Positions 10,593 to 32,414 of a stretch of DNA of 34,091 bases are shown piece by piece (the stretch's first letter is position 1; each line of letters starts with the position of its first letter). A program made the translations under genes and the position numbers. Origin of the DNA: Thraustochytrium sp. TN22 (lineage: Eukaryota > Sar > Bigyra > Thraustochytrida > Thraustochytriidae); contig JABLUY010000320.1 of assembly GCA_013306675.1 (NCBI GenBank), positions 1 through 34,091 of the forward strand, written 5' to 3'. A model generated the notes under the pieces. That model worked only from the letters and a program-made list of their open reading frames with translations. It was not told where the DNA came from and ran no database searches.

Positions 10593-10760
10593 GCCTGCGC
10601 CTGCGCCTGCCTCCTCCCCGCCGCGGCGGCGGCGGAGGGCGGGGCAGACCGGCAACGCGCGCGGGCAGGGCTCGCGCAGCGTCGGCGGCGCCCGCCGCGC
10701 AGCCCGGCGCCGCGCGGCGCCCCGGCCCGGCCGGCCCGGGCGCGCGCGAGCTGAGCAAGC

Positions 10761-10964: not shown

Positions 10965-12358
10965 ATGCAGCCCGGGCGAGAGTACGGGCGCAGCACCGAG
11001 GAGGACGTACGGCGCGCGTACCACCAGCAGCACCAGCACCGGCACCAGCTGCAGCAGCCTATGCAGCAGCCTATGCAGCAGCCTATGCAGCAGCCTATGC
11101 AGCCGTACGCTGTGCAAGGCGTGCGGCCGCCGCAGCCGCGCCAGCGCGCGCGGCCACGCGCGCCGCCACCGCCAGGGCCCTCGTCGCCACACGACGTCGA
11201 GGACCTCGGCATGGGCGCGGGGTACGAGCCGCGGTACGAGCCGCATCTGCAGGAGCACGGCATTCACGACGCGTACGCGCACGCAGTGGGACCACCAAGG
11301 GGGGCGGAGCAGCAGCAGGCGCGGTACGGACTGGACGCAGTGGGCGCCGCGAGGTACGCGCTGCCGGCGGCCACGACGGCGGCAGCGCCCGCGGTCCGTG
11401 GCAGCTTTGAGAACTCCATCTTCAAGCCGCGTTACCAGCGAAATAACAAGCGCGGAGGCCTCAAGAACCTCCGATGCTTTCCCTCGTGCGGGTTCAGGCA
11501 CAAAGAGAAGGGGTTTTGCGGCCGGTCTGTGGAGTTCGAGCTCTCCCACGCCGTGCCGCTGCCGCCGGGCCAGGAGTACCACTCGTGGGTGGAGTTCGTG
11601 CGCTCCGACGAGGCGTCGCGGTACTCTCTGGGCGAGCGCGTGGCACTGAGTGCCGTAAGTGCGCTGGAGCGCAGCAAGGACGAGCCCATCAAGCCGCTCG
11701 TGCGCGGCGAGCGCCTCAACGAGAAGAGCACCGATGTGTCCACGTCGTTCGAGTTCAACCGCGAGCGCCGCGGCTGGCACTACGGCTGGACCTCCAACAA
11801 GCACACCTGCAACGCGCAGCATGTACTTCAGTGCTACGTCTTTGAGACCGCGCCGCACAATCCGGGCGACCTGCGCTGTCGCCTCATCGTGCGCTCGCCC
11901 AGTTTCATGCTGTTTTGCCGCCGCCGCCGCCGCTTCACCATCATGCCCTCTGCACCCACCTCGGCGCCCACGAAGCGTGCCCGGGGTCATTCCGCGGCAA
12001 GCGATGGGCCCACGCTCAAGCGCGAGCGCCATGAGTCGGCTGACGATAACATTGACGAGGGCGCGGAAGACGAGGATGACGACCACGACGGCGACGCCGC
12101 CGAGGGCGACGCTGCGGGCGGGCCCCAGGCGCCCTTGGTGCCGTCCTCTGCGCCGCTGCCGCCGACACCGCTGCCGCCCTTGCGCGCCTCTCCTACGGAT
12201 CGCGTCATGGTGTCTGCACCAGCCTCCGTGTTGGGCGACGGCGCCTGGGGCACGGCTCCATACTCAAGCAGCCTCATGCGCCCCGGCGTGCCCGTTTCCG
12301 CAGACTCTTCGCGCCTCGAGGCGACCTTTAAACGCCTCGCAGTCGTCATGAGCCGCAT

Positions 12359-12391
<33 letters not shown>

Positions 12392-12395
12392 ACAA

Positions 12396-12430
<35 letters not shown>

Positions 12431-13916
12431 ACAGCCATCACACTTGCTACACATGCAGCTGCCGCAGTCACCGCAGCCTTTCGAGCCATCGGCGCTGCAG
12501 CAGGAGGACGCGCGGAGCGGCGGCATGGGGGGCGGGAGTGTTGGCTCCGCGGAGGGCTTTGCAACGTTCATGAGCGGAGAGGCAGACGCTGGCGCCTCAG
12601 ACGAGGCCTTCAACGCGCAGGTGCTCGACGCGCTCGAGCTCTTCAGCCGGCTACCCGACATGGGCGAGGACATCTTCTGGTTGGACGGCGTCGAGTCCAT
12701 GGGCAACGGGACGCCGCTCCCAGCCCTGGACCTGCCGCCCGCGACGCCGTGTGCTGGCGCCAAGGACATGGACGCGGAGGAGCCGCCAGTGGCGCCGCTG
12801 CCGGCAGACGAGGCGAGCGGCGAAGCGGGAGGCGCGGGCGTGGCGGGCCCAGGCGCCGTACCGGCGCCCAAGCCGCTCAAACGCACGACCAGCGAGCTCA
12901 TGCTGGATGACGTCGCGCAGTACCTGCGCAAGGAGTCCAAGTTCCAGCGCGCGCTGGGGAAGATCACCGAGCAGGCGCACAATGGCGCGCCGGACTATCG
13001 CGGCTTTCTGCGCATGGTCCAAGACTATCTGGAGTCGTACCGACGCAGCCGCAATATCAGCCGCACGGAGTTTGATCGCGCCTTCAACGGCGCGGTGGCA
13101 CGTTTCAACCAAAACCGCGTCGCACCGCCCCCAAGCCCGTCCAAAGCGTCCTCTTCCTTGTCCGCGGCAGGCGCTGCGGACGCCGGTGGTGAGCCGGCGC
13201 CGCGCCAGCAGTCCCTTCTTGGGTCCGCGTTTGGCGCGCTCACCTCCTTCGTGTCAACCTCTACCTCGGCGGCCGCGGCTGCCGCGGCCGGGGCGGCATC
13301 CTCTTCGTCTTCGTCTTCTTCTTCGTCGTCGTCTTCGTCTTCTTCGTTGTCGTCGTCGTCGTCGTCGTCAGCGTCAGCGCCCAACCGGCTCTCCGCGAGC
13401 AACCAGCCGCTCTACCTTGCGGGCCCGCGCCACGAGCGCATCCCCAACATCCAGGGCCGCTGGCGGCAGACTGAAATGTCCGAGAATCTGATGCAGGAGA
13501 TGCGCATCAAGATGGGCATGCCCTGGATTTTGAGCAAAATGTTCGAGTTCATGGAGTCGCTCTACGAAATCGAAATCCACGCCAGCGACCTGACCATGGT
13601 GACACGGCTCGCTCGCAGGTGGATCTCCAACACCTCGCTACGATTCGTGCTGGACGGCGACGAGCACGAGTGGGGCATCTCGCTGCCCGCGCCATTTTCC
13701 CAGCTCTCGCAAGGGTGGACCTACCGCGCCTGGATCGAGGACGACAAGATCATCCTCTCGCACATGATTGGCGATCAGCGTCTCACGCGCGTCAACTGGG
13801 TTAACCCGGCCCGCGACGCACTGCACTCCACCGTCATCCTCGAGGTTCAGGACCCCGCCTCCGGAAACTACCTTGAGATGGGCCGCGTCAACCAGCACGC
13901 AACCCTCGTGCCCTGA
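10965..13916 (+). CDS. Q/S-rich putative regulator with calycin/FABP-like C-terminus
   Basis: 983 residues; family not recognised. Order: four QQPM units (perfect 12-bp repeats, 11052-11099); a conserved-looking basic, beta-rich domain at about 145-325 with C171, C175, H179 and C185 spaced CX3CX3HX5C; basic clusters at about 326-350 that could be nuclear localisation signals; an acidic, Pro-rich linker; 25 Gln in mixed CAG/CAA (12360-12434); a helical module at about 640-715 (LDDVAQYLRKESKF, YRGFLRMVQDYLES); a poly-Ser tract at about 776-803; and a globular tail at about 822-983. The tail begins GRWRQTEMSENLMQEM and contains MPWILSKM, then alternating beta strands. This resembles fatty-acid-binding-protein/lipocalin order (GxW, two short helices, beta-barrel). 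A nuclear regulator with a ligand-binding barrel is inference only. Confidence 0.7.
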
Positions 13917-17645: not shown

Positions 17646-17704
17646 ATGGGCGCCGGGGCGTCAGCCTCGTCGTCCACGGCGAAGCGGTATCAGCAAGCGC
17701 CGGC

Positions 17705-17774
<70 letters not shown>

Positions 17775-20700
17775 GCGCCGCAGGCCGCCGTTGGCAGGCT
17801 TCACACCGAGCGCAAGTCGCCGCGACTCGAACAAGAACTGATAAAAGCCGCGGATGACCCGGATGAGCTGCGACGTGTCGCGAGACAGGCCATGGCACAA
17901 ACCGAACGCCTCAGGCAGGTGAATCGCCTGGCGCGCGAGCTGTCAACGCGTCATGATCAGAAATCACAGTTCGCCTTCATCATCCGCATGCTCTCCAAGA
18001 TTGTGAACGCGGAGCGCGCCATCCTGTATCTCGTGGACACGGAGCACCAGTGTCTGCGCGTGCAGGTAGCGCGGCATCATGGCGAAGGTGAAGTCGAGGG
18101 CGACTTTGACATTGCGTCCGTGCCGATTCCGCTCGACAAGGGCATCGTCGGCGCGGTGGCACGCGAGGGCATGAGCGTGAACGTGGAGCACGCGCCGAGC
18201 GACGCGCGCTTCAATGCCGAGGTGGACGACGCGACCGTGTCCAAGCTGAAAACGCACTCCCTTCTCACAGTTCCCATAGGATACCCAGAGCGCAAGCTGC
18301 CCGTGCTGTTGGGGCGTGGCTTCACAGCGCTCGATCTGGAGACCACACTCCAGCAGGACCACGAGCGTCTCGAGGCGACAGGCCCTGAAGAGCGTCTCTC
18401 AGTGATCGCAGTGGTGCAGGTGGTCAACAAGCGAGGCGCCGAGGGCCAGATTGAGGCGTTCACGGAGGATGACCAGCTTGTGCTGGAGTCGTCCATGAGC
18501 ATCTTGGCCGGCTACATGCTGCACGTGCAGCTCCGCGAGCGGGAGATGGCCGAGCGCAAGCGCAAGGAGGCCATTTTGAGCATTGCCGTGGCGCTAAGCT
18601 CGACGCTCGACGCTCGCTCGCTGATTGTGACGGTAGTGCAGAAGCTGCAGCGTACCTTCAACGCGGAGCGCTGCTCGCTCTTCATTGTGGACGCGGAGGC
18701 TGGGATGATGTGGACCATGGCGAGCGGCGCTGGCCAGCTCTGGTCGCGGCGCGGAACCGCGAACGGCGGCAACGAGGCAGACATCGTGCGCCTGCCGCTG
18801 AACAAGGGCATCATGGGCCACGTGGCGCGCACGGGCGAGCTGGTGAACGTGCACGACACCAAGATCGAGACTCGCTTTGACCCAACCGTGGACAGCGAGC
18901 GCGGCGTGACGACGCGCTGCATGCTATGCGGCGCGGTGCGCAATTTTGAGGGCAAGGTCGTGGCCGTGGTGCGTCTGATCAACAAACAGGATTCCGCGAC
19001 CGCGTCGTCGTGGACCTCGTCGTCGTCCGCCGGGCCGCACGCCGCCTCGGGCGCGGCGAGAGTTACCGGCGACGGCCTGCTCGAGAGCGGCGACACCAAG
19101 CACCGGTCCATGATGCGCATGCGTCAGTCGGGCCTGGGCCGCAGCGCCGCAAGCTCGCTGTCCAGCAACTTCCGCGTACGCGCCGGGTCCAAGCGGCGCG
19201 GAAGCGTGGTGTACGGCGCGGGCGACAACTTCGAGGTCAACTTTGACGTGGACGACGAGAAGCTGCTGGTGGGTTTGTTCTCTATGCTGGGCGTGGCCGT
19301 GGCCAACGCAGAGCTCTTCTCCAAGTCCTTTGTCGCGCGACACCGGCTCAAGTGTGTGCTGGAGAACGTGTCAGAGCTGGTTCTCACGGTGGACAAGGGT
19401 GGAATGCTCATGGGCTGCAACCGGTCGAGCGCGGAGCTGAACCAGCTGTTTGGGACCAACATCCCGCGCTCCTCCATGCGAGCGCTGCGCGTGACCGAGT
19501 GGCTGCCGGACAGGCAGATCACGAGCGAGCTGCAGGCGGTCCTGCACGAGGCCGTCTCGGACGAGAGCCGCGCTCGCGCCATTGGCGTCACGCGGTCAGA
19601 CCACAAGGTGGGCGCCGGCTCGCACGTAGTTAACTACACGATCAAGCCGATGCTGGGCGTGGGCGACAGTCTGTCGGAGATTCTGCGCGCGCAGGAGCTT
19701 CTCAGCCTCCAGCGCGCCACTGTGGCCAATGACGTGGAGGCGGCCACCTCGGCGCCAGACTTGGACACGCACGGCGCAGAGTGCAGCGAGACTGAATTCG
19801 ACGGGGGCCCGGACTTGGGCGGGCTTATGGCGGCGGCGGCGGCGGCGGCGGTGGCGGCGGAGGATTCGCAAGGGATCGACCTCGGGGCGGCCTCAAGCAA
19901 GTCTCTTCCAGCGATTCTGTCTCGGGCGACGGCGCCGCAGGATCGCGGCGGGGAGGACGCAGAGCAGCAGGAGGCATTGGACGAGGACCTCATGGAGGAC
20001 GCCGACTCGGGCCCTGGGAGCGTCGCACAGCGACGCGTGGAGCTGAACAGCGACGTGATCGGCGCCGTCCTGTGTATTGACGACAAAACTCCGGAGCAGA
20101 AGCTGCTGAGCACGCTCAACAAGTACCTGGCGCCTGACCTGGTGGACCACCTCTTGCAAGACGGCCAGCTCAAGCTGGGCGGCACGCGGCAAAAGGTTAG
20201 CATTCTCTTCAGTGACATCCGGGGGTTCACGACCTTTAGCGAGCAGGTGGGCCCCGAGGAGGTCTTCGCGACGCTCAACGAGTACTTTAGCTGCATGGTG
20301 GACGTCATCACGCGCCATGGAGGCATCGTGGACAAGTTCATCGGCGACGCGCTCATGGCAGTCTTTGGCGTGCCACACCAGAGCGAACGCGACGCCTACA
20401 ACGCGTGCCTGGCGGCCAACGCGATGGAGTCGGCGCTTGCCGCCTTTAACGCGGCGCGCCGCGCGCAGGGCAAGCCGATCATCAAGATCGGGGTCGGCGT
20501 CAGCTGCGGCTACGTGCTCTCGGGGAACATCGGGTCGGAGAACCGCTTCGAGTACACGGTCATTGGTGACGCGGTCAATGTCGCCTCGCGCCTCGAGACC
20601 TCCACCAAGGAGTTCTCTGTGTCCAACCTCGTCAGCGAGGCCACCTACGAGGACATGCGCGCGAGCGGCTGCCCCGTGCAGATCGTGGGCGCAGCAGACG

Positions 20701-21341
20701 GCTCCGGCACGGACGCGCCGGTCGCGACCGCCGCCTCGCCGGACCAGCCTTGGGTCTTTCTGCGCGAGGTGGACCGCGTGCGGGTCGCGGGCAAGGACGA
20801 GCAGACCCAGCTCTATGAGATCGTCGGCGTGGGCGCCGACCTGTCCGAGGCGCTGCCGGCGTCCAAGGCCGCCGCGCTGCGTGCCTATCAGGAGGGCCTC
20901 GAGGCCTACCGGCGGCGCGACATTGAGACGGCGCTGGAGCGCTTTGAGGCCGCGGCGGACGGCGGCGACGGGCCGGCTTGCCTCTTCGAGGAGCGCTGCG
21001 AGTTCCTCATCAAGAATCCGCCCAGTGAGTCTTGGGACGGCGTCTGGGACATGCAAAAGGTCTCGGTCTGGACCTACAACCCAGGCATTGTCAAGGCGCC
21101 CAGCACTGCCGCCGTCGAGCCGCTTTCGCGCCGCATCTCGCGCAAGAACCTCACCTCCACCTCGCTTCCCGAGAGTGCCTCGCACGCGCTCCACGACAGC
21201 AAGCCCAAGAACCAGGTTCACCTGCCCGACGTCCCTGGCGCCGGCGCTGGCAAGCTCCAGCAGGGTCGTCTCAAGCGCTCCAAGAGCATCATCATGCCTG
21301 CCTCCCCCAACTTTTTCGGCGGCGACCATGGCGCCGAGTGA
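17646..21341 (+). CDS. Class III adenylate cyclase with two GAF domains and a PAS-like domain
   Basis: 1231 residues; the ATG has an excellent context (ACCATGG). The N-terminus MGAGASASS fits an N-myristoylation signal, so lipid anchoring is likely. 23 Gln follow. GAF1 spans about 100-265 and GAF2 about 310-450. GAF2's closing helix (LLVGLFSMLGVAVANAELF) is displaced to about 540-558 by a Ser-rich insert. A PAS-like unit lies at about 568-668 and an acidic linker at about 700-800. The cyclase domain (about 825-1000) has FSDIRGFT near 855 (metal Asp), DKFIGD at 896 (Lys for adenine) and YTVIGDAVNVASR from 970 (Thr for adenine, Asn/Arg for catalysis), all favouring ATP over GTP. The C-terminal 200 residues include a TPR-like helical pair. 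It makes cAMP; GAF domains often bind cyclic nucleotides, so feedback control is plausible. Confidence 0.92.
17706..17774 (+). repeat. Pure CAG tract in the cyclase gene
   Basis: 22 uninterrupted CAG codons (17706-17771) followed by one CAA give 23 Gln near the N-terminus. The poly-Gln tract in the 983-residue gene is instead a CAG/CAA mixture. Confidence 0.95.
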
Positions 21342-29290: not shown

Positions 29291-32088
29291 TTACTGGCTG
29301 GCGCTGGAGGCTGCCGCGCCAAGCAGGGCGAGCAAGCCGGCAGGGTCAAGCTCGCGGTCGGCCTCAAGCTGGCCCTGCGAGAATGCTGGAGAGCCGCCGC
29401 CCTTGCCGGGCACTTGCTTCAGCAAAAGGCGCAGGGCGTCGCCAGCGGCGACCTCGCTATTGGCACCCGCAGCGCAGGCGACCAGACGCGGCCCGCACAC
29501 GGCGACGTGCAGGCGCGAGGGGTCCGCCTTGACGGCCTCGTTGAGGAAGGCCTGGAGCGCCTTACGCGACTCCTTCGGGTCGTCCGGCGCCACATCGGGC
29601 ACCTCGTGCACCACGATGCGGTCCGAGGAAGCCGCAGCGCCGGCGCCGGCGGCCGTGGGCTGCAGCAGTCGCTTCTGCAGCGCCTTGTTGTCGGCGCGCT
29701 GCTTTTGCAGCGCATCGCGCAACTTGGCGACGGCGTCCTCGACGGCGGCGGGCTTGGGCGAGGACTTGAGCGTGTCCCCGAGGCGCTCGAGCGCGTCGGC
29801 GCGATCCTGCAGCCAGACGCGCGCCGCAGCGCCGGCCACGGCCTCGACGCGGCGCGTGCCGGCGGCCACGCTGCTCTGGCCGACGATTTTGAATGGGTGC
29901 AGGAGCGCCGTGTTGGCGGCGTGCGTGCCACCGCAGAGCTCCACAGACCGGTCTACGCGGAGGCCGGCGCTGGAGGGCGCGCGCACGCTAATGACGCGCA
30001 CCACATCGCCGTACTTCTCGCCAAAGTGCATGAGCGCGTCCAGCTGCTTGGCTTCTTCGATAGGGACGGTCTGCGTGCCAACCTCGAGCGCCTCTTCCGC
30101 GAGCGCGTTGACAGCGTCCTCGATGCTGCGGATCTGTAGAAAAGGGTCAGTCATTCTGTCTGTCGGCACATTGAAAACGAATTAAAACTCCTCCCCCCCG
30201 CCCCGCCCCGCCCCCTCTAGGCCGTTGTCGTGAGTACGTGTATGAATGTGGAGCCCACCCGCAGCGAGCGCGTTGGATGCGGTCTCGTCGGGGAAAATGT
30301 CGACGAGACCACCACCGCGGGGGCTGGCGCACTTGACTGTTGCACTCGTTCCTTGGGGCGATTCTCATCTAGAAAAACGAGAAAGCCCCTACACATGAAT
30401 GCGTCTCTCCTAATCCCTCTGTACTCTCTCCCTGTCTCTCTCTCCCTCTCTCTCTCTCTCTTGCAGCAGCAACACAGATACGTACCTGTTGACGCGTGAG
30501 CGGCTCGCCGTGCGTAAAGTCGAAGCGCAGACGGTCCGGCGTGACGAGCGAGCCGGCCTGCACGACGTGGTCGCCAAGCTCGGCGCGGAGCGCGGCCTGC
30601 AGCAGGTGCGTGGCCGTGTGGTGCGCGGCGGCGCGGCGGCGCGCAGTGCCGTCGACGCAGGCAGAGACGCGCGTGCCGACCGCCGGCAGCGCGTCGAACG
30701 GCGCGTTCACGAGGATGGCGAGGCCGTCCTCGAAAGGACGACAAACGTGCTTGACCTCGGCATTGTGCACGTGTTCGCCGTTGGCCAGCACAAGGTGACC
30801 GCAATCGGCGGCCTGGCCGCCGCCCTCCGGGTAAAAGGGGCAGGGCGAGATGACGAGCCAGGAGGTGTCGGCGTCGGAGCCCGGCGCAGCGGCCAGCACA
30901 ACGGCCTCGTCCTCGCGCAGGCGGTCGTAGCCGGAAAAGGGCACGCGCAGGTCGCCGCGGCGCGCCCAGGCGCGCACATCGGGCGTGGGCTCGAGCGGAC
31001 CGGCTGGGCCGTCGGCGGACCAGGACGCGTTGGCCGCGGAGCGCGAGCGCTGCTCGTCCATGTGGCGCTCGAACGCGTCAAGGTCGACCGCGACTCCGCG
31101 CGCCTCCGCCACGCGCGTGGTGAGGTCGATGGGGAAGCCGAAGGTGTCGTACATCTGGAAGGCGAGCGCGCCGTCGAGCGTCTGACTCGCAGCAGCCGAG
31201 GCCAGGTGGCGCTCGAGGTGCGCCATGCCGTGGTCGAGCGTTCGCAAGAAGGAGGCCTCTTCCGCCTGCAGCACCGAGGCGATGGCGCCGCGGCGCTCCG
31301 CGAGCTCCGGGTACGGATTGGAGATCGCAAAGGTGGCCTCGAGCGCGGGTAGCAGCGAGGCGAGGAAGGGGTCGCGCAGGCCGAGCGCGTGGCCAAAGCC
31401 GACCGCGCGGCGCACGATGCGGCGCAGCACGTAGCCGCGGCCGACATTGCTGGGCACGACGCCGTCTGCGATGAGGAAGGCGGCAGCGCGCACGTGGTCG
31501 GCGGCGATGCGCGCGAAGAGGCGAGTCTGGTCGGCAGTGGCCGTGGAGCCGGCAGGCACGAGCGCGGCGGCCTGCGCGACGAGCGGGGCGAGCAGGTCCG
31601 TGTCGAAGTTGGACGGCACGCCCTGGAGCACGGCGCAGATGCGCTCGAGGCCCATGCCGGTGTCGACGCAGGGCGCCGGGAGCGGGCTGAGGCCGCCGGC
31701 GCCGTCCGACTGGAACTGCATGAAAACAAGGTTCCATATCTCCAGGTAGCGGTCGTCGTCCGGCAGCGAGGCGTCGCCGGTGTCGAAGAAGATCTCCGAG
31801 CACGGGCCGCACGGCACGCCCTGGCCGTCGCCCATGGACCAGAAGTTGTCCTCCTTGCCGAGGCGGCGGATCGGGCCCGCCTCGGGCGGCAGCACGCGCC
31901 GCCACAGCTCCTCACTCTCGTCGTCGTCCTGGAAAACCGTCACGCTGAGCCGATGCGCCGGCAGCCCCAGCTCGCCGTGCACAAAGGACCACGCCTTGAC
32001 GATGGCCTCCTCCTTGAAGTAGTCGCCAAAGGAGAAGTTGCCCAGCATCTCAAAGAACGTGTGGTGCCGCGCCGTGTAGCCGACGTTG

Positions 32089-32123
<35 letters not shown>

Positions 32124-32414
32124 CTTTTGACAGCTCGTCGCGCGCGTGTACGGCCGCTCGTCGCGGCCCAGGAAGACCTCCTTGAACGGCACCATGCCCG
32201 CGTTCGTGAACAGCAGGCTCGCGTCGCCGCTCGCCGGCACCAGCGGCGCTGACGGCACGCGCGCGTGGCCGTCCGCCTCGAAGCTCGCCAGGAAGCGCTC
32301 GCGCACCTCGCCGCTCGCCGTGCCCGAGAGCGCCGCGGCGCGCGCCGCGCCGCACCCCGGCCGCGCGCGCCGCACGCCGCACGCGCGCCGCGCCGCCGCG
32401 CCCGGCCCCAGCAT
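29291..32414 (-). CDS. Alanyl-tRNA synthetase, two exons
   Basis: Exon 1 is 32414-30486 (643 codons, phase 0) and exon 2 is 30133-29291, giving 923 residues. The first 35 residues are Arg/Ala-rich and look like a mitochondrial leader. Class II core: [52 protein letters not shown], and MGLERI. The editing domain has HHTATH (H599 and H603) in exon 1 and CGGTH (C710, H714) in exon 2, so both metal-binding halves are present. A short coiled-coil and C-terminal domain follow. It attaches Ala to tRNA-Ala and removes Ser and Gly. Only one AlaRS is visible here. Dual cytosolic and mitochondrial use is common for AlaRS in eukaryotes but cannot be told from this window. Confidence 0.93.
30134..30485 (-). 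other. 352-bp spliceosomal intron in the AlaRS gene
   Basis: On the minus strand the donor is CAACAG|GTACGT (30486/30485) and the acceptor is TTTTCTACAG|ATC (30134/30133). A CTGAC branch-like word lies about 14 bases before the acceptor. A GA-rich microsatellite (plus-strand CT run, 30424-30462) lies near the 5' splice site and a C/G run near 30188-30212. The intron joins codons in phase 0 between the two metal-binding halves of the editing site. Confidence 0.9.
30424..30462. repeat. CT dinucleotide microsatellite in the AlaRS intron
   Basis: CT repeats with a few CCT interruptions; GA-rich on the coding strand, starting about 23 bases inside the intron from the donor. Confidence 0.8.

Follow-up and report, generated by a model that had tools for sequence, protein, structure and literature searches.

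Nuclear receptors and other transcription factors of their ligand-gated kind are, to our knowledge, an animal speciality, and the ligand domain of these receptors has an all-helical fold. Among the described proteins that lie closest to the one analysed here, human THAP4 is a nuclear protein that begins with a zinc-finger DNA-binding domain and ends in an all-beta heme barrel, nitrobindin, which binds heme via a proximal histidine (PMC6275384). Fatty-acid-binding proteins (FABPs) are described as cytosolic animal proteins, and in the bile-salt receptor VtrA/VtrC of Vibrio a calycin-like barrel controls a DNA-binding domain (PMC4933562). The protein described below is encoded by an open reading frame (ORF) of 983 amino acids from Thraustochytrium sp. 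TN22 (positions 10965..13916, + strand, ATG start), and it combines a basic candidate DNA-binding domain (domain A), a helical segment (domain B) and a candidate calycin/FABP-like barrel (domain C).

Within the window, that is, the whole stretch of 34,091 nucleotides that was analysed, this ORF is intact and its stop-free frame opens already at 10755 on the + strand, and the codon composition of the ORF shows a GC3 of 0.82 versus a GC2 of 0.51. The sequence-only reading had ascribed to the protein poly-glutamine, poly-serine, acidic linkers, basic clusters and a CX3CX3HX5C pattern, and a script scan found all of them where that reading had placed them. All features named here lie on the + strand. 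Starting from the N-terminus, a (QQPM)x4 repeat (residues 30-45, 11052..11099) in a low-complexity region is followed by domain A (residues 153-322, 11421..11930), which contains the putative zinc site C171/C175/H179/C185 (residues 171-185, 11475..11519) and is closed by RRRRR (residues 319-323, 11919..11933), a segment that is CRRR-like in most aligned paralogs. A KRAR...KRER stretch (11973-12032) precedes an acidic linker (12033..12119), the acidic run EDEDDD occupies residues 368-373, and the poly-glutamine tract (Q25) covers residues 466-490 (12360..12434). Domain B (residues 644-720, 12894..13124) is followed by a poly-serine linker, with S16 at residues 779-794 and S7 at residues 796-802 (13299..13370), and then by domain C (residues 829-983, 13449..13913), where the GxW start reads GRW at residues 831-833. 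Regarding the linkers, an activation-like cluster of acidic and hydrophobic residues does not exceed chance in the 983-aa protein, as 51 of 300 shuffles of its own linker score as high, and just one of the 12 linkers compared (that of L030) exceeds all 300 shuffles.

Among the window neighbours, nine of the ten scanned ORFs match Pfam, including Ku, Pex2/Pex12, two cyclophilins, a Myb protein and a GAF-cyclase, which marks the DNA as eukaryotic. The 1231-aa protein at 17646-21341 combines two GAF stretches with a nucleotide cyclase domain and carries polyQ close to its N-terminal end. Two further genes are presumably those of LeuRS and AlaRS, as read from the ORF translations; the alanyl-tRNA synthetase reading occupies two frames, 30369-32414 and 29291-30169 (-), about 200 bases apart, and an intron or a sequence break is the likely reason for this split.

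Searches of the 37.9-Mb genome (453 contigs) located domain A at no fewer than 23 places, and a second query made from another paralog recovered the identical 23 places; the 983-aa protein is a member of a large paralog family, not a singleton. All 23 copies have a pI of 7.7-9.8. An alignment of 22 of them, from which L032 was excluded owing to a long insert, has eight invariant columns (R, C, P, C, H, C, Y and H), and the putative metal ligands C171, C175, H179 and C185 make up four of these, being kept in 22 of 22 aligned copies, which differ in the spacing ahead of the metal-site histidine. L032 likewise reads C-x3-C-x3-H-x5-C, and the conservation of the four residues is more than chance. 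The insert of L032 (contig C248) comprises approximately 110 residues ahead of the last strand, partly acidic and of low complexity, and is either a genuine insertion or an unspliced intron. Concerning the genomic arrangement, contig C22 carries three family members (18956, 24436 and 37167) and the 15.6-kb contig C354 another three (237, 6441 and 9817), on both strands, which suggests local duplication.

Regarding the databases, Pfam gave no significant match for domains A, B or C, whether the whole protein, the domains, the alignments of 22 and of 12 members or the consensus sequences were searched. In PDB, too, neither the profiles nor the consensus sequences of A and C had a significant match, and no chain was found for domain B, which was searched within the whole protein. 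The lowest E-values of the 983-aa protein, TFIIA in Pfam (0.003) and a nuclear-pore chain in PDB (0.00019), both fall on the polyQ stretch. No relative of domain A was found in the viral contigs or the prokaryote genomes searched, nor any of domain C in the viral contigs, and no such regulator family appears in titles or abstract starts among the literature matches listed.

DNA-binding families typically have many copies of a basic domain in which metal-site residues such as these are invariant, and conserved metal ligands, as in zinc-dependent DNA-binding proteins, are present in domain A in the form of its putative metal site. The proposal of a transcriptional regulator is supported indirectly, by the basic domain with its invariant C, C, H and C residues, the 23-copy family and the polyQ, polySer and acidic linkers, but its candidate DNA-binding domain matches no recognised family. 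This last point favours another view, that the members are not transcription factors but proteins associated with RNA or chromatin, or cytoplasmic scaffolds, whose linkers are of low complexity, as does the presence of polyQ in the window ORFs at 1657 and 17646, which means that low complexity is not special to the 983-aa protein. However, the basic domain and its invariant site in a 23-copy family count against this view, which we consider improbable. Judged from their sequences, the 983-aa protein and its paralogs probably form a family of nuclear regulators not described before, and the regulator part of our explanation is likely.

The fold of domain A was approached by structure prediction, which the sequence-only reading had proposed as a check, and by profile comparison. 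Its single-sequence AlphaFold2 model is unusable (pLDDT 32.9). Among three Ig-fold families tried, p53 was the best, with a weak similarity (score 19.2, E 0.033) that 2 of 80 shuffles equalled; FABP, taken as a negative control, came near this value, with 6 of 80 shuffles as high. As for single members of the p53 family, in a reference set of few sequences, human and mouse p53 beat all 82 decoys, while the p63 score was matched by 8 of the 82 and that of p73 by 2. The other candidates gave no signal (Rel, 43 of 80 shuffles as high; Runt, 11 of 80) or stayed at chance level (Velvet, with a Pfam match in 1 of 22 members only, E 0.22); a genome-wide search for Velvet likewise gave no hit, but its controls gave none either. 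Domain A is possibly a p53-like Ig fold, which we regard as a lead.

Domain B lies between A and C and is helical by propensity. When searched as a single protein, it gave no convincing paralog (best other E 0.31), which hinted that it was unique to the 983-aa protein; this was overturned by a profile, built from nine segments chosen by eye from the linkers, that finds the helical segment in 9 of the 23 family ORFs, with L038 as a borderline case (E 0.0046). When the 983-aa protein was left out of the profile, its domain B was recovered with an E-value of 4.2e-5 in a set of 24 frames. The middle regions of the family are diverse: L028, L029 and L030, which bear domain C, have no detectable domain B and have in common a different conserved region of approximately 110-230 residues ahead of C. 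In addition, L039 and L046, with no detectable C, resemble each other in their C-terminal part (E 4e-19, 314 columns), possibly a further domain as judged from its sequence.

Domain C is also a family trait, as a single search with it reached five other genome places at E < 1e-3, and iterated profiles detected it in 12 of the 23 family ORFs, always C-terminal to A within one open frame. With a profile built from the other 11, domain C of the 983-aa protein is recovered at an E-value of 1.5e-26 (set of 24 frames). Not all copies are complete, since L029, L030 and L043 match just the first 82-98 of the 131 profile positions and L028 the first 121; these four are omitted from the 8-member profile used below beside the 12-member one. 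Weak extra places were seen on C364 (E 0.96) and C419 (E 0.56). The remaining 11 of the 23 members show no domain C, which was counted against the leading explanation, but its absence in a paralog can also reflect an intron or a broken frame. On the domain-A tree, the distribution of C requires three events of gain or loss; 15 of the 20 inner branches of this tree are weakly supported, and a single origin of the domain with later losses is possible.

Regarding the fold of domain C, intracellular lipid-binding proteins (iLBPs, the group of the FABPs) follow the order of one strand, a helix pair and nine strands. The single-sequence AlphaFold2 model of C has this order, with a strand at 830-836, helices at 840-850 and 854-863 and nine strands between 866 and 976, at very low confidence (mean pLDDT 37.1, pTM 0.26), and the predicted helix pair stands where the sequence-only reading had placed ENLMQEM / MPWILSKM. 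A propensity calculation over eight members agrees partly, giving strand 1, a helix, a strand-like stretch, a helix and then mainly strands. At the level of families, Pfam recognised nothing for C alone or its consensus, and no match of the iLBP/FABP kind (PF14651) among the 12 members. A genome-wide search for this family gave no hit, but its controls gave none either.

The comparison of profiles, likewise suggested beforehand for calycin-type families, was made by hhalign against 13 FABP-type sequences and resulted, per single comparison, in E-values of 0.048 for the 8-member profile of C (52 columns) and 0.028 for the 12-member profile (60 columns). Strand 1, both helices and strand 2 are in register in these local alignments, which stop within the first half of C, and nothing is secure past the first third to half. 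After the removal of gap-rich columns, the FABP profile was shuffled by column or by block; none of 100 shuffles reached the score of the 12-member profile (17.8), and 1 of 100 that of the 8-member profile (17.6). Global alignment gave an E-value of 0.048 over 115 columns for the 12-member profile and failed for the 8-member one (score 0.4, 2 columns). Taken singly, the FABPs had a mean score of 13.3 versus 11.1 (sd 2.3) for 82 decoys, which were pieces of 13 other window ORFs; one of the 13, CRBP1, beat all 82, and 7 of the 13 align in the N-terminal register, the other 6 being out of register or too short to judge. Two natural decoys, however, score 17.8-17.9, equal to the FABP profile, so the likeness between C and FABP is suggestive at most. 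Beta-lactoglobulin, at its GTW, likewise aligns with the GxW stretch of C, and the nitrobindin domain of THAP4 scored 13.6 against C in a single-sequence hhalign, over 10 columns at GxW/GTW. RBP4 was rejected as a relative, being out of register, as was Bet v 1 (score 14.2), whose match is just 8 columns long and also out of register.

The decoys that equal the FABP profile, and the score of Bet v 1 itself, would fit a domain C with another known fold missed by sequence methods, for instance alpha+beta of the SRPBCC/Bet v 1-like kind, the FABP likeness then being accidental. Folds of this kind need a C-terminal helix, and AlphaFold2 predicts none in C; moreover, the Bet v 1 match has the defects given above and the match to the FABP profile exceeds 199 of 200 shuffles, both profiles together, by which another fold becomes quite unlikely. 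As to the barrel of the sequence-only reading, it is weakly supported by the order of the AlphaFold2 model and by the faint in-register similarity to the FABP profile, and is left with no Pfam or PDB match; on the evidence of model and sequence, a calycin/FABP-like barrel has about an even chance.

Most copies of domain C are basic, 10 of 12 having a pI of at least 8.0, and the alignment of C has just one invariant column, the glycine of GxW; these features suit a surface-binding module no less than a pocket. They agree with a regulator lacking a ligand pocket, in which A binds DNA, B and C are protein-protein modules, and C is beta-rich with a filled core, holding partners or dimerising. The family and linker evidence (the copies of A, the metal-site conservation, B and C) is equally compatible with such a protein, and the weakness of the FABP similarity is in its favour. 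Meanwhile, the predicted order of C is that of a ligand-binding barrel and its best single in-register match, CRBP1, is a retinol-binding relative of FABP, both of which tell against a filled core. We hold the pocketless regulator as a tentative alternative, clearly short of an even chance.

The explanation that we prefer is that of lineage-expanded nuclear regulators, to which we give a probability of about 0.4; the odds of the alternatives overlap with it and with one another. According to this explanation, domain A, ordered by zinc via C171/C175/H179/C185 and flanked by basic segments, would bind DNA, as its conservation and charge suggest, and the acidic and polyQ low-complexity linkers would act in transcription, in keeping with their composition. 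The helical domain B may serve in self-association or partner binding, and domain C would be a calycin/FABP-like beta-barrel holding a small hydrophobic ligand, such as a lipid. Occupancy of C by this ligand would then alter the activity of the regulator, a kind of control that we consider possible while giving it well under an even chance.

Regarding the lipids of this organism, contig C124 (26703-35603; L057, L058) holds a near-full-length PUFA synthase of PfaA type in one frame of 3044 residues, with 2539.7 bits at a cut-off of 1010.1, from which we infer that the cell probably has unusual lipids available. On the opposite strand, approximately 2.6 kb from the first, lies a second frame of polyketide type (2083 residues), an arrangement that fits a thraustochytrid. 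In a broader reading, rather unlikely in our estimate, a protist lineage that makes omega-3 lipids would have arrived, independently of animals, at its own expanded set of transcription factors that sense lipids, in effect a nuclear-receptor system assembled from other components. These components, proposed with the same reserve, would be a DNA-binding domain of a new, zinc-stabilised type, a helical domain for association and a FABP-like barrel reading intracellular lipid. If true, a family in which DNA-binding domain and lipid barrel are joined would represent an independent solution, and it would indicate a way in which oil-rich protists might sense their own lipid state. Even with no ligand, a regulator-like family of 23 copies, for which no match was found in Pfam or PDB and in which the C, C, H and C residues are invariant, deserves a name as a domain family.

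Compared with the known systems, the p53-like superfamily resembles domain A by its weak profile score (E 0.033), but the zinc site of p53 is split, whereas the putative metal site of domain A is a single cluster of 15 residues. THAP4 is alike in having a putative zinc-site domain first and a candidate barrel last in one chain, and differs because neither the THAP zinc finger nor nitrobindin is among the Pfam matches of the 983-aa protein and its domains. In contrast to nitrobindin, domain C has no invariant histidine and has a predicted helix pair after strand 1. The iLBP/FABP family (Pfam Lipocalin_7) corresponds to domain C in the predicted strand-helix-helix-nine-strand order, the GxW start and a length similar to that of FABPs; the differences are that domain C has no sequence match in Pfam or PDB, is fused to other domains and occurs in a protist. 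VtrA/VtrC is bacterial, signals across a membrane and forms its barrel from two proteins, whereas a single polypeptide is concerned here (PMC4933562). Nuclear receptors, finally, would share with the 983-aa protein a zinc-stabilised DNA-binding domain and a hydrophobic-ligand domain in one chain, but their two-zinc C4 and helical ligand-binding domains are absent among its three Pfam matches up to E 10, and its candidate ligand domain is barrel-like, not all-helical. As a hypothesis, it is fair to call the 983-aa protein an analogue of nuclear receptors.
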